Shown: positions 2,980-23,335 of the stretch, one piece after another
Layout of the letters: every line of letters begins with the position of its first letter
Numbering within the stretch: position 1 is the stretch's first letter
Assembly (NCBI GenBank): GCA_944326615.1
Contig: CALVEO010000014.1
Location: 1-37,516, forward strand
From: Candidatus Gastranaerophilales bacterium
GTDB lineage: Bacteria > Cyanobacteriota > Vampirovibrionia > Gastranaerophilales > Gastranaerophilaceae
Reading direction: 5' to 3'
DNA length: 37,516 nt
Position numbers and translations under genes: made by a program
Notes under the pieces: model-generated
Seen by the model: only the letters and a program-made list of their open reading frames with translations
Told to the model about the DNA's origin: nothing
Databases searched by the model: none

Positions 2980-4194
2980 GGTATTTAAATAATTAATTTC
3001 ATCATCTTTTGTCATATCAGGATTTTTCAGTTTTTGTTTAAGTATTTCATCAAAAATCTGCTGGTATTTCGGCGACGGCTTTATCCCTGAATTTTTCAAA
3101 TCATCACCGGTTATTTCAATTTTAATTTTTCTTAAATCGTCAAGGTAATACCTTGCCCCCTGCTCGTCTTTTAAAATTCCGTAAAGCAAAACTGTTTCAA
3201 GGCGCGCATTTTCAAACGCTTTATAAAGTTCAAAATCAGTTTTCAATACACTCTCCGGCACATCATTGAGAATTTTTTGTTCTATCTTTGTGAGAGGCAG
3301 ACGGGACAAATCGCCGAGAACTCCGACGTAAACAAGCCAGAAAAAATTTTCGCCTGCTCCCTTGAAACTTGGCTGCAGATAATCATTTATCAGTTTTTCA
3401 ATATTAACATCAGGCAATTCAACATCATTCGGCGTTACAAGTTTATAAATCTTTTCGTTTATAAATCTTTCAAATGCATACTGATAACTGTGCCCTCTCT
3501 CTTTGTGAGAGGGCAGAATTTCGCCTTTCGCCTTCGGGGAAAGGCTGAAATTCGGGTGAGGGTCAAAAGTTTCAATCAGTTCTTTTTTAACCCTTTTATA
3601 GCTCATATCGTAATTTATATTATCAAGATAATCCTGCTGGAGTTTTTTTGTATGTTCATCAAGTGCAAAGCCGAAACGTACTGAAAATTTAAGTGCTCTG
3701 ATAATTCTTGTCGGATCATCAATAAAACTTTTGTCATGCAAAACACGCAGTTTTTTATTTTTCAAATCATCAAGTCCGCCGGTATAATCAACAATTTCGC
3801 CTGTAGTAACAGATTTAGCCAGTGCATTTATTGTAAAGTCGCGTCTCATAACATCTTCTTTCAACGAGCAACCGATTTTATCAACAACAGGAAGATGTCC
3901 TTTGCGCGGGTAGCTTTCTGAGCGTGTCGAAGCAAAATCAACAATTATCATATCCTTCTCCCCAATGCGGGAGAAGGTGCCCGAAGGGCGGATGAGGGGT
4001 GAAAGTTTCACCCTGACAGTTCCGAAATCAGGATTTACCTGAACAACTTCGCCAAATTTTGAACAATATTCTATTGCGTTTCCTACACAGGTTATATCAA
4101 TATCAAAGGATTCACGTCCGAGAAGTTCATCTCTGACGACTCCGCCTATGAAAAACAGTTTGTTTGAAGTATCCTTTATATTGATGATGTTCAT
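2962..4194 (-). CDS. cca: CCA tRNA nucleotidyltransferase / poly(A) polymerase family protein
   Basis: It adds or repairs the 3' CCA of tRNA. The head domain shows GGVVRD at residues 17-22 and the metal-binding DID at 31-33, then IVDFASTRSESY, MRRDFTINALA and the DDPTRIIRA(L)KF RNA/nucleotide-binding segment typical of class II enzymes. Two stretches do not fit the family, residues about 64-81 and 212-235. Each is encoded exactly by a DNA palindrome (separate entries), so both look like in-frame insertions into loops. The start at 4194 is preferred over ATG 4230 because a full promoter (TTGTTA-17-TAAAAT) ends 7 nt before it and no ribosome site is present. The 3' end overlaps the convergent DUF4145-like gene. 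Confidence 0.85.
   Translation of the reverse strand: MNIINIKDTSNKLFFIGGVVRDELLGRESFDIDITCVGNAIEYCSKFGEVVQVNPDFGTVRVKLSPLIRPSGTFSRIGEKDMIIVDFASTRSESYPRKGHLPVVDKIGCSLKEDVMRRDFTINALAKSVTTGEIVDYTGGLDDLKNKKLRVLHDKSFIDDPTRIIRALKFSVRFGFALDEHTKKLQQDYLDNINYDMSYKRVKKELIETFDPHPNFSLSPKAKGEILPSHKERGHSYQYAFERFINEKIYKLVTPNDVELPDVNIEKLINDYLQPSFKGAGENFFWLVYVGVLGDLSRLPLTKIEQKILNDVPESVLKTDFELYKAFENARLETVLLYGILKDEQGARYYLDDLRKIKIEITGDDLKNSGIKPSPKYQQIFDEILKQKLKNPDMTKDDEINYLNTLRNMD
3491..3562. repeat. In-frame palindromic element 2 inside cca
   Basis: Stacked hairpins: TGCCCTCTC (3491-3499) with GAGAGGGCA (3507-3515); GAATTTC (3516-3522) with GAAATTC (3547-3553), enclosing GCCTTTC (3523-3529) with GAAAGGC (3539-3545). 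On the coding strand it begins CCCTCACCCG, close to CCCTCATCCG in the other element of the same gene. It adds about 24 residues (PNFSLSPKAKG... KERGHS) between IETFD and YAFERF-like sequence, with no stop or frameshift. Confidence 0.8.
3954..4013. repeat. In-frame palindromic element 1 inside cca
   Basis: CCTTCTCCC (3954-3962) pairs with GGGAGAAGG (3969-3977), GCCC (3979-3982) with GGGC (3986-3989), and GGGTGAAA (3997-4004) with TTTCACCC (4006-4013). It encodes about SPLIRPSGTFSRIGEK between the strands GTVRVKL and MIIVDFA of the nucleotidyltransferase head. In the family these strands are normally joined by a short turn. The sequence type (CTCATCC...CTTCTCCC...GGGAGAAGG) resembles dispersed palindromes known in many bacterial genomes. 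Confidence 0.8.
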
Positions 4195-4241: not shown

Positions 4242-4345
4242 AGGGTAAGAGGGTAAGAAGATAAGAGGGTAAGATATTTAATAAATTATTTTGTGCGTCA
4301 GCACCTATACAAGCTTACCTTCCTATCATCCTACCTTCTAATCCT
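4242..4345. repeat. 8-bp-unit inverted array, element A
   Basis: Left arm 4242-4273 is four 8-bp units: AGGGTAAG, AGGGTAAG, AAGATAAG, AGGGTAAG. After a 40-nt spacer, the right arm 4314-4345 holds four units whose reverse complements are AGGATTAG, AAGGTAGG, ATGATAGG and AAGGTAAG. It lies between cca and the helicase gene, ending just before the helicase ribosome site. Elements B, C and D in this window share the architecture but use different units. Confidence 0.75.
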
Positions 4346-8578: not shown

Positions 8579-9499
8579 TTAATCAAATCTCTTATTTTCT
8601 GAATATCTTTCATAATCTAATTTATTCTTTAAAAAGATAGTTTTTAATGCCCCATAACTACCACTACTTGGCTGTAATTTTTGCGGTTGAACAATAATTT
8701 GATGAACGTCAGCCCCATATTGATTGGGGCCTTTGTTTGCACCATTAACATCAATAACCACAGTTGCACATCTTGTATCCGTAATAGTTTCTGTTTCACC
8801 TGTATTAAATCCGTTTTCATCTTTTACATTACTTGTATATGTCCATGGTTCACAAGTCTGTCTTATATCTCTAAAAGAAATTGAACTCCCGTCAACAAGT
8901 AAGAGTCTCGGAAAACCAAAAGATTCCTTCTTAACACCACCCGTACCATTATTTGTAGGTTTTGCCAATTTAACAATATATGTACTTCCACACCCTTTGC
9001 CGGATGATTCACATACCTTTGCTCCGTTATAATATGCTGCTATAGCTTTTGCTACATCCTCTTTTTTGCCGTCGCCGTAAGCAAAAATTGAGGAATAATC
9101 AACTGAACCTGTATCTGCTAACATTCTGTTAAGTACATTCATAAAATTTGAATAACTTTTTTTAGATTGAGCAATCAAAACCTGATCTTTATAGCGTTGA
9201 ATTAAAGAAGGCATAGTAAGTGCGGCCACAACACCGATAATTCCTAATGTTATCAAAACCTCCGCCAGAGTGAAAGCGGCGCGACGAAGATTGTCAAAGT
9301 GGACTACGTGCGTATTACCTTCCACCAAAGTAAACGCGGTTCGACGAATACCGTCAAAGTGGACTACGTGCGTAGCACCCTCTGCCAAAGTAAAAGCTCC
9401 TTGTTTTCTCTCTAAATTCTTTACTAAAACCGGATAATTTACATCACGCAAACCGGCAAAACATGCTTCAGGAGCGGCTAAATGCCCCCCCCCCGACAT
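8579..9499 (-). CDS. Type IV prepilin-like protein C with repeated, probably phase-variable leader
   Basis: The leader closely matches that of prepilin B: MSGGGHLAAPE start, Cys-Phe-Ala-Gly, KNLERKQ, then 20-residue repeats at 34-53 and 54-73, each with AFTLxE and THVVHFD. The mature pilin begins at residue 76 with FTLAEVLITLGIIG. The body after about residue 105 is unrelated to B and rich in Gly, Ser and Thr, with Cys pairs and the D-x-N-G...P-N-x-x-G-x-D motif. ATG 9499 has no ribosome site. The start behind GAGGAG at 9522-9520 is out of frame because of a G10 tract and ends at TAG 9480-9478. Leader and promoter are shared with B, so the two loci can probably recombine. Confidence 0.8.
   Translation of the reverse strand: MSGGGHLAAPEACFAGLRDVNYPVLVKNLERKQGAFTLAEGATHVVHFDGIRRTAFTLVEGNTHVVHFDNLRRAAFTLAEVLITLGIIGVVAALTMPSLIQRYKDQVLIAQSKKSYSNFMNVLNRMLADTGSVDYSSIFAYGDGKKEDVAKAIAAYYNGAKVCESSGKGCGSTYIVKLAKPTNNGTGGVKKESFGFPRLLLVDGSSISFRDIRQTCEPWTYTSNVKDENGFNTGETETITDTRCATVVIDVNGANKGPNQYGADVHQIIVQPQKLQPSSGSYGALKTIFLKNKLDYERYSENKRFD
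9281..9400 (-). repeat. 60-bp coding tandem repeat in prepilin C leader
   Basis: Two 60-bp units in phase with the reading frame, each containing a GTCAAAGTGGACTACGTGCG word on the plus strand. They are the same unit type as in prepilin B (8189-8308), and differ between the two genes mainly by scattered substitutions. Confidence 0.85.
9485..9494 (-). promoter_or_regulatory. G10 tract at prepilin C start, candidate slipped-strand switch
   Basis: The same arrangement and the same length (ten G) as at 8393-8402. The ribosome-site-preceded frame from 9522 stops after 14 codons at this length. Confidence 0.75.
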
Positions 9500-11375: not shown

Positions 11376-11493
11376 TCAATAAGCCTAAAAGTTAATAAGT
11401 GAATAAGTTCTTTACAAAAGCAATATTCTAAAATATTCACAATAACTATTTTACGAAATGACTTATTAACTCATTAACCTATTCACCTAAAGA
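11376..11493. repeat. 8-bp-unit inverted array, element B
   Basis: Left arm 11376-11407: TCAATAAG, CCTAAAAG, TTAATAAG, TGAATAAG. After a 54-nt spacer, right arm 11462-11493, whose reverse complements are TCTTTAGG, TGAATAGG, TTAATGAG and TTAATAAG. It ends 3 nt from the fabG stop and lies upstream of the acpP promoter. Confidence 0.75.
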
Positions 11494-16465: not shown

Positions 16466-16566
16466 TTATAAAGATACTAAATTTCTAAGGCCTTAAAGGC
16501 AATAAGGCATTTCGTTGAAATATTATATGAAAGACTTATTGCCTTAGTATCTTAATGCCTTAGTAT
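16466..16566. repeat. 8-bp-unit inverted array, element C
   Basis: Left arm 16466-16506: TTATAAAG, ATACTAAA, TTTCTAAG, GCCTTAAAG (9 nt), GCAATAAG. After a 28-nt spacer, right arm 16535-16566, whose reverse complements are ATACTAAG, GCATTAAG, ATACTAAG and GCAATAAG. It fills the gap between rpmF (stop 3 nt away) and plsX. Confidence 0.8.
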
Positions 16567-21063: not shown

Positions 21064-23255
21064 TTAATATTTTGAGAATATTTTTTATTTTAATCCTTGT
21101 AACTCTCGGGGTTCTGGTATTTTTTAGGCCTGCAAATACCGAAACAAATATTTTGAAAGCAGTATTTTCCTCAACTGAAGATAATATTCTTGTAGACTTG
21201 AGCAGTAAATTTTCAGCAAGGATTAACGTAATAGTCGAAAACGAAAGTCCTGAAAAATCGGAAGAAATTGCAAAAACTATATATGCAAAACTCGATAAAA
21301 ACATTTTTTATACATCAGATGTAAATATCACAGGTGTTTTATCAGATTACGAAAAATATCATAATAATCTGCTATCACCAGAAACACGCAGGCTTTTAAT
21401 AAACAAACAGTACAATATCGTTGCAGAAAAAGGGCTTGAGGCTTTATATAATCCTATTATGCCGCCGATAGGTTCAATAGAAGATGATCCTTTTCTTCTG
21501 TTGACTGATTTTGTCATGGGGTTTTCTGAGAATAAAGAAGTCTCAAATTTTACACCCGTTCAATTTAACGGAAAATATTACAGCCTCATTATGCTGAATG
21601 TTGACAGTGAAATTGCATTATCACCTTCTGTTTTGAATGACGAAGTTAAAAAATTAACCGATATTCAAAAAGAATATTCAAAAGACGGAACAAATGTGTA
21701 TCTAACAGGCGCTCCTGTGCACTCTTATTTTGCAAGCAGTCATTCTATTTTTGAAATTAACCTGATAAGCATTCTTTCGATTATTTTTATAATATGCCTT
21801 GTATATTTTTATTTCGATTCAATTATCCCTCTAATCCCTATTGGTATAAGCATTGGCGCCGGAATTTTTGCGGGCTGGAGCATGGTATCTTTAATATTCA
21901 AAGATATACATATTTTGACTTTTGTATTTTCAACAACATTAATCGGAATTTGTGTTGACTATTCGCTTCATTATTTTGTATCACTTCAAGCTAACAAGTC
22001 AGGGCAAGATGCTTTAAAAGAAATATTTAAAAGTTTATCGGTCAGTCTGTTGACAACTGTCGGAGCTTTTATTGTTCTTTTATTTTCAAATTTTATTCTT
22101 TTAAAACAAATTTCGGTATTTACAATAACAGGTCTTGTAACCGTATATTCAATCGTTGTTCTTTTTTATCCTGCTGTATTTAGCAAAACCGGAGGACAAA
22201 ATAAAAGTGCTGCAAATCTGTTACAAAAACTATTAATGATTAAAAAATGTCCTCACCTTGAGAGAGGAACAATTTCGAGGCGGGGACTAAATATCATAAC
22301 TCTAATTGCTTGTATAATCCTCATCTTTGGATTTTCCCGTATAAGCTTTGACGACAACATAAAAAACATGTACGTTCCGCCGAAATTTCTTGTTAATGCT
22401 GAAAAACTATTTGCAGAACTTGCAGGAACAGGCAGCGACATTTCATTTTTTGTTGTTAAAGGACAAAATCTTCAAGATATCTTAGAAAAAGAAGAAGCAA
22501 TTTCTGATAAGCTTGAGAGTAAAAATGTGACATACCAGGCATTGAGCCGTTATATGCCTTCAATTAAACGCCAGATGTCAAATCAGTATTTAAGAAAACA
22601 GCTTTACAAAGACAAAATCGAGGAATATGCAGTATTTTTACCCTCATCGCAGAGAATTAAGCTCATTAAAGAAAAAAATAATATAGGATTTTTAACATTA
22701 AACAACAATTTTGATTTATTTAAGAAAAATTTTTTAATAGATAAAAATACTTCAATAATGGTTTTATATAATTACGAAGGCGGCACAATAGAAGGCGCGC
22801 GTTTAATTTCTCTGCAAAAAGACATCTCATCACAGCTCAGAAAATGCAGAATAATATGTTTAAGCCTGCTTTTGCCTATTTTCTTATTTTTATACCTTCT
22901 TCTTGCAAAAATTTATGATTTCAAATCCGCGTTAAAAATAATTTCGCCATCAATTTGTGCTGTATTATTTGTATTTGGGATGCTCGGGCTTTTTAACTGT
23001 CATGTGAATCTTTTCCATCTGCTTGCAATATTTTTGATAATCGGGTTCGGGCTTGACTATTCTGTATTCAGATTTGGAGGAAACAAAAAATCTTCAGATG
23101 CTGTATTGATGTCTTGTATGACAACGGTATTTTCATTTGCGCTTCTGGGGTTTGCAGGATTTAAGCTCATAAGCTCGCTCGGCACCGTACTTTCGCTCGG
23201 ACTTGTAAGCTCGTATATTTTTAGTTTAATATTGATACAGAAGGTAGGAAGATAA
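21048..23255 (+). CDS. MMPL/RND-type lipid exporter
   Basis: A 735-residue inner-membrane protein with the duplicated RND plan: one helix (about 6-25), a large periplasmic loop (to about 230), five or six helices (230-390), a second single helix (about 412-430), a second loop, and five helices at the C-terminus. Acidic residues within membrane segments (GLDYSVF, GICVDYSLHY) fit proton-driven transport. It overlaps the LolA-like gene by 16 bases, as the pair does in aryl-polyene clusters. The last codons and stop lie inside element D. Confidence 0.88.
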   Translation: MHNKLINILRIFFILILVTLGVLVFFRPANTETNILKAVFSSTEDNILVDLSSKFSARINVIVENESPEKSEEIAKTIYAKLDKNIFYTSDVNITGVLSDYEKYHNNLLSPETRRLLINKQYNIVAEKGLEALYNPIMPPIGSIEDDPFLLLTDFVMGFSENKEVSNFTPVQFNGKYYSLIMLNVDSEIALSPSVLNDEVKKLTDIQKEYSKDGTNVYLTGAPVHSYFASSHSIFEINLISILSIIFIICLVYFYFDSIIPLIPIGISIGAGIFAGWSMVSLIFKDIHILTFVFSTTLIGICVDYSLHYFVSLQANKSGQDALKEIFKSLSVSLLTTVGAFIVLLFSNFILLKQISVFTITGLVTVYSIVVLFYPAVFSKTGGQNKSAANLLQKLLMIKKCPHLERGTISRRGLNIITLIACIILIFGFSRISFDDNIKNMYVPPKFLVNAEKLFAELAGTGSDISFFVVKGQNLQDILEKEEAISDKLESKNVTYQALSRYMPSIKRQMSNQYLRKQLYKDKIEEYAVFLPSSQRIKLIKEKNNIGFLTLNNNFDLFKKNFLIDKNTSIMVLYNYEGGTIEGARLISLQKDISSQLRKCRIICLSLLLPIFLFLYLLLAKIYDFKSALKIISPSICAVLFVFGMLGLFNCHVNLFHLLAIFLIIGFGLDYSVFRFGGNKKSSDAVLMSCMTTVFSFALLGFAGFKLISSLGTVLSLGLVSSYIFSLILIQKVGR

Positions 23256-23318
23256 GAAGATAGGAGGATAAGCAATTAACTGTAAATAACTTAACTTATT
23301 CCTGCTCGTCCTGACTTC
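23241..23318. repeat. 8-bp-unit inverted array, element D
   Basis: Left arm 23241-23272: AAGGTAGG, AAGATAAG, AAGATAGG, AGGATAAG, covering the last codons and TAA stop of the MMPL gene. After a 22-nt spacer, right arm 23295-23318, whose reverse complements are GAAGTCAG, GACGAGCA and GGAATAAG. It is the least well preserved of the four elements. It lies just before the ribosome site of the methyltransferase gene. Confidence 0.65.
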
Positions 23319-23335
23319 TAATATGAGGATAAAAA

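Follow-up and report, generated by a model that had tools for sequence, protein, structure and literature searches.

What are the inverted arrays of 8-bp units that recur along the window, by which we mean the whole 37,516-nt stretch of DNA analysed here, and what put them there? The window belongs to a Gastranaerophilales MAG of 1.96 Mb in 78 contigs, and the PlsX loci related to its own, which reach 100% protein identity, belong to Candidatus Gastranaerophilales / Melainabacteria MAGs. The genes around the arrays are ordinary and include a poly(A) polymerase-head protein, an AAA helicase, an acyl carrier protein, an SDR, PlsX, L32, an MMPL protein and an O-methyltransferase.

Layout of the four window elements

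Element A (4242-4345), read directly, has the plan originally predicted for it, with four octamers of the TARG type on one side of a 40-nt spacer and four inverted ones on the other (Table 1); its arm identity is 0.78 and its RNA-fold z is -5.9/-4.9. The other three elements had been assigned to the same plan in exact 8-bp phase. This holds for element B (11376-11493), which lies in the gap between the genes of a fabG-like SDR and the acyl carrier protein, both on the minus strand; it is built of TNAATAAG units, among which CCTAAAAG is degenerate, and its arm identity is just 0.69. Element C, whose left arm contains one 9-bp step, follows it less strictly, as does element D (23238-23321), in which a clean left arm faces a degenerate right arm with one 9-bp step and CCTG replacing CYTA. 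Sense-strand folding z ranges from -3.2 to -5.9 for elements A, B and C, and the fold of element D hardly rises above shuffles (z -0.9/-1.8). The left arm of D also contributes (23238-23255) the stop codon of the MMPL ORF, which ends at 23255, and the C-terminus of this protein therefore differs between relatives with and without the element. The window additionally holds a 60-bp tandem repeat at 9259-9397 (2.3 copies, 79% matches).

Table 1. Coordinates of the window elements and of the arm copies associated with prepilin-like genes
Feature	Location	Strand	Description
Element A left arm	4242..4273	+	four 8-bp TARG-type units: AGGGTAAG AGGGTAAG AAGATAAG AGGGTAAG
Element A spacer	4274..4313	.	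40 nt; small hairpin GTGCG..GCAC within
Element A right arm	4314..4345	-	minus-strand units, from the spacer outward: AAGGTAAG ATGATAGG AAGGTAGG AGGATTAG
Element B left arm	11376..11407	+	TCAATAAG CCTAAAAG TTAATAAG TGAATAAG
Element B spacer	11408..11461	.	54 nt
Element B right arm	11462..11493	-	minus-strand units, from the spacer outward: TTAATAAG TTAATGAG TGAATAGG TCTTTAGG
Element C left arm	16470..16507	+	one 9-bp step; rpmF-plsX gap
Element C spacer	16508..16532	.	
Element C right arm	16533..16566	-	TAAG-ending units
Element D left arm	23238..23272	+	GAAGGTAGG AAGATAAG AAGATAGG AGGATAAG
Element D spacer	23273..23294	.	
Element D right arm	23295..23321	-	degenerate; CYTG (CARG-class) units
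Prepilin-associated arm copies	G000 C1:12571, C1:62574, C4:27595, C6:61335, C10:30076, C15:6954, C16:25529, C37:15053		

Periodicity, copy number and dispersal

A motif-free scan, combining lag-p self-match in two arms with an inverted match between them, was applied to 435 kb of the window genome, a sample partly picked around known hits. It returned 13 elements at p=8 against 0 in first-order Markov sequence, so that the 8-bp autocorrelation with an inverted partner for which a genome scan had been proposed stands out from the background. There were 0 elements at p=6-7 and p=9-13, and 7 versus 2 at lag 14; with relaxed cut-offs the p=8 count was 22 versus 3, and the longer lags exceeded the Markov level as well. 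The TAAG core named in the original prediction as common to the elements is borne out in the form TARG, which occurs in phase in both arms of 17 of the 18 strict motif-free elements from this and related sequence. Genome-wide, the pattern TARG-N4-TARG-N4-TARG-(15-45)-inverse has 30 matches, which overlap in phase and reduce to 17 loci, and its reversed control has 0; three-unit single arms number 230 versus 27. Pattern searches and the 435-kb sample extrapolate roughly to ~95 arrays per genome; exact patterns miss degenerate copies and thus undercount.

A copy measures ~65–120 bp, and each of its two arms, inverted relative to one another, holds about four units of 8 bp (N4-TARG here and N4-CARG in related genomes). 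The spacers are short and AT-rich, and are often themselves palindromic (TTTACNGTAAA) or carry a GTGCGC hairpin; at several sites a single arm stands without a partner. Composite copies exceed 300 bp, and in those designated L010, L019 and L021 (G000 C25:25137-25540, C37:6332-6375 and C52:11268-11600) other palindromes (GTGCGC..GCGCAC, CCCTCTCC..GGGAGAGGG and AAAAGAAAAAGAATATT) are nested in octamer arms in the manner of a Russian doll. As to an association with promoters, the GTGAATAAG class, judged by eye, often begins right after a TTAACA-N17-TATTAT-like stretch.

Near-identical copies occupy unrelated loci of the window genome (C2:11360, C5:45855, C30, C32, C36, C37 and others), and genome G077 holds three identical 85-bp copies. 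With gene calls taken as simple long ORFs, which makes the placement figures approximate, 26 of 32 arrays are intergenic, versus an intergenic share of 13% of the sample (p=3e-18), and placement is neutral to the orientation of the flanking genes (p=0.56); divergent gaps and gene interiors also hold elements. All six arrays located within ORFs lie directly ahead of a prepilin-like N-terminus recognised by sequence, and the two such ORFs that were profile-tested matched prepilin-type models. At least eight copies of one octamer arm, followed by shared repeats, directly precede the FTLAEVLITLG-type N-terminus of prepilin-like genes (Table 1); these arms may encode part of long leader peptides.

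The comparison of orthologous gaps among relatives that had been suggested for these elements revealed presence and absence at gaps A and B. Within one genus, gap A is short and empty in G002, G004, G005, G006, G010, G012, G013 and G016; it is filled in G000, G001, G007, G009, G011, G014, G017, G018 and G019. Its units are of the CARG class in eight genomes, of the TARG class in G000 and of a 7-bp type (GTGAAGN) in G015. Gap B is filled in the window and its closest relatives (L033, L035, L042), and the element is missing in L039 and other, more distant loci; a palindrome of 7-bp units occupies the fabG-acpP gap in L036, L037 and L044. Inverted elements of 7-bp units (GTGAARN or similar) were also noticed at gap A in L193 and in the rpmF-plsX gap in L107. 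The latter gap bears 8-mer elements in some species only, with differing units, and a simple hairpin in most relatives without 8-mers.

Exact-pattern counts range from 0 to 30 among genomes of the same genus, and the element therefore looks dispensable. Of 193 relatives, 17 have complete TARG elements; across the phylum the figure is 22 of 386 genomes, with matches that include plain tandem repeats (e.g., in G282). CARG elements are found in 5 of 116 genomes. The genomes richest in copies are G000, G077, G058 and G042. Inverted TAGGGGTG-type 8-bp elements occur outside the class in the large genomes G208, G220 and G449, presumably oxygenic cyanobacteria. The IMG/VR viral contig L275 carries an octamer element at 3666-3744; as this lies between the terminase and portal genes, it is phage- or prophage-borne.

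The TIGR03960 radical-SAM gene of G000 contains two in-frame inserts of 87 nt each, for which relatives possess intact empty alleles (KALCEGENSGRW). On the gene tree, alleles with and without the insert at site 1 are intermingled, which requires repeated loss, repeated gain or gene exchange, and exchange between species may be the source of the pattern. The TARG class occupies this site in G000 and in G008, each accompanied by close relatives of the CARG class, and at least two changes must therefore have taken place there. The filled and empty flanks, both at gap A and at the radical-SAM sites, are too diverged for reading a target-site duplication.

Origin and upkeep of the arms

Multi-copy dispersal, orthologous presence and absence, in-frame insertion, spacer inversion and the mixing of unit classes are all directly seen, and the four window sites are probably copies of a non-autonomous dispersed palindromic repeat, similar to MITEs or Rickettsia palindromic elements (RPE), with a new arm architecture. 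Copies would spread by inserting between genes and, on occasion, in frame within them. Each arm might be a series of tandem sites recognised by a trans-acting protein, either a transposase or another recombinase. We infer this from the fixed 8-bp pitch and TARG/CARG core; recognition arrays would explain why pitch and core are kept as the other bases drift, and why two arms need not match. A search of the Y1 family found no transposase flanked by octamer arms, and gave no Y1 match in several element-bearing genomes. The sole RAYT-like Y1 gene of G000 (L235:130-660, contig C19) is preceded by a REP-type palindrome of its own (GTAGGTTGGGGTTTCTACCCCAAC) and contains a related stretch in inverse orientation, with no octamer arms nearby. 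Since this gene bears a different palindrome and element-bearing genomes exist without a Y1 match, RAYT/Y1 was rejected as the mover.

Over all 28 paired elements, arm identity is 0.714 within a site versus 0.662 between sites (p=0.011), an excess that arises because unit classes differ. Inside the main AGGG class (15 paired elements) the relation is reversed, with 0.727 within versus 0.769 between (p=0.996). The expectation that arms match best within a site thus fails in this class, and maintenance of each site by arm-arm pairing is left unsupported, as main-class arms are closer between copies than within them. Their likeness between copies fits copying of the whole element from a master with two different arms.

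The presence of different unit classes at the same site across species implies that some changes occur in place. What the dispersed-repeat reading explains least is how both arms at a fixed site come to carry another unit class; resident copies may have acted as donors for conversion, or a new copy may have inserted at the same target. An alternative, suggested by the class changes at radical-SAM site 1 and in our view unlikely, holds that the pitch (8 or 7 bp) is inherited and that a homogenising process active in each lineage overwrites the units of both arms where the element stands; this process may be conversion from resident copies or templated resynthesis.

It is also unlikely that the elements are RNA hairpins, serving as intercistronic terminators, stabilisers or attenuators and selected for base pairing in the transcript. 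The sense-strand folding of A, B and C speaks for such hairpins, as do the operon gaps that elements occupy (rpmF-plsX, fabG-acpP and ribosomal protein genes) and the simple hairpin seen in the rpmF-plsX gap of most relatives without 8-mers. However, G·U and A·C mismatches on the sense strand stand at 95:104, and at 26:48 for in-gene copies (p=0.014, which is not reliable because the copies are mutually related); with no G·U preference, transcript pairing is not visibly what keeps the arms. Elements also lie in divergent gaps and inside genes, the same gap lacks the element in many species, and no terminator-like T-tract follows the full stems. Among the window elements, a terminator scan found only one short stem, internal to C and on the antisense side. 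Identification as intrinsic terminators, with a GC-rich stem and a T tract at gene ends, was rejected on the missing T-tracts and the orientation-neutral placement. The purely intergenic hairpin role entertained in the original prediction is not supported, given that placement, the mismatch ratio and the copies within coding sequence.

We hold it improbable that the elements are local replication products, in which each site would separately have acquired its 8-bp repeats by strand slippage and its inverted partner by template switching between the arms. Two observations on single copies speak for it. The spacer of element B has the window orientation in L033 and is the reverse complement in L035 and L042, with flanks that keep their orientation; the spacer of element A matches the orthologous spacers of G009, G014, G017 and G018 only as the reverse complement. 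Such a flip would result from an inversion across the arms, from template switching or from reinsertion the other way round. Furthermore, two long copies (C25 and C52) have 32-nt arms that match at 32/32 positions. The 7-bp version at the same gaps in other species, and the site at which both arms changed their unit class, also agree with local production. Against it, copies at unrelated sites have main-class arm types in common and the two arms of one site differ. The 4-mers vary around a conserved TARG core, which pure slippage would not yield, and filled and empty in-frame alleles differ by one whole element. Slippage alone thus fails on the near-identical copies at unrelated sites and on whole-element presence and absence; of the proposed template-switch copying, the part that survives is that inversion or template switching seems to act on single copies, and the part that does not is maintenance of the arms within a site.

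An equally improbable suggestion is that the arms act at the DNA level, as arrays bound by a protein that organises the chromosome or has a regulatory role; ectopic recombination would have spread them, and selection would have kept them at some sites. This would suit the fixed pitch and core with variable filler, the strong intergenic enrichment and the arms found singly, but it is countered by the variable counts in same-genus genomes, by the elements within coding sequence and by an 8-bp pitch that is out of step with the DNA helical repeat.

Comparison with known repeat families

The dispersed repeat favoured above appears to be a bacterial family of mobile palindromes that has not been described. 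No named repeat family had been recognised in it from the start, and this agrees with our searches: Rfam returned no match, and the literature, queried with sequence strings and general terms in a coverage with few subscription papers, returned no description of such an architecture. The result is an apparently undescribed repeat family in an uncultured gut lineage sister to cyanobacteria, and the filled and empty alleles of a conserved gene can be used to date and map insertions. The puzzle it poses is what preserves the pitch of 8 bp and the four core bases when, in both arms, the remaining positions of the unit are exchanged.

RPE are palindromic, ~150 bp long and present in many copies, both in intergenic DNA and in frame in unrelated protein genes (PMC10969869). 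The elements described here share these habits, being palindromic, multi-copy, intergenic and, at the two radical-SAM sites of G000, inserted in frame into a protein gene. They differ in belonging to another phylum and in their periodic 8-bp arms, of which the review passages on RPE (PMC10969869) make no mention; the comparison is one of descriptions.

With MITEs (such as Nezha of cyanobacteria, Correia and ERIC) they have in common that they are short, non-autonomous, dispersed and polymorphic, with multiple copies, inverted arms, no coding capacity of their own and empty orthologous sites in relatives. In contrast to the single terminal repeat of a MITE, the arms are tandem 8-bp arrays; the Y1-family search yielded no parent transposon, and the diverged flanks let no target duplication be read. 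REP/BIME sequences associated with RAYT (Y1) are likewise small intergenic palindromes that form composite clusters, and one RAYT-like gene exists in G000; however, this gene carries a GTAGGTTGGGG..CCCCAAC palindrome. Membership in the RAYT-mobilised REP/BIME group was set aside, the gene being accompanied by another kind of palindrome.

Cyanobacterial STRR / TAACTGA heptamers are intergenic arrays with a 7-bp unit, present in cyanobacteria and in other phyla as well (PMC4679880). The 7-bp versions in the same gaps of relatives resemble them, as do the TAGGGGTG-type inverted elements of presumed oxygenic members. STRR are mostly direct repeats of one exact unit, whereas the present elements have degenerate 8-bp units with a fixed core in two inverted arms, and they were not classed as STRR, that is, as direct exact 7-bp tandem arrays. 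Heptamer and octamer arrays have long been known in cyanobacteria; that presumably oxygenic genomes of the phylum also show the present architecture suggests that these arrays might share a mechanism with mobile palindromes.
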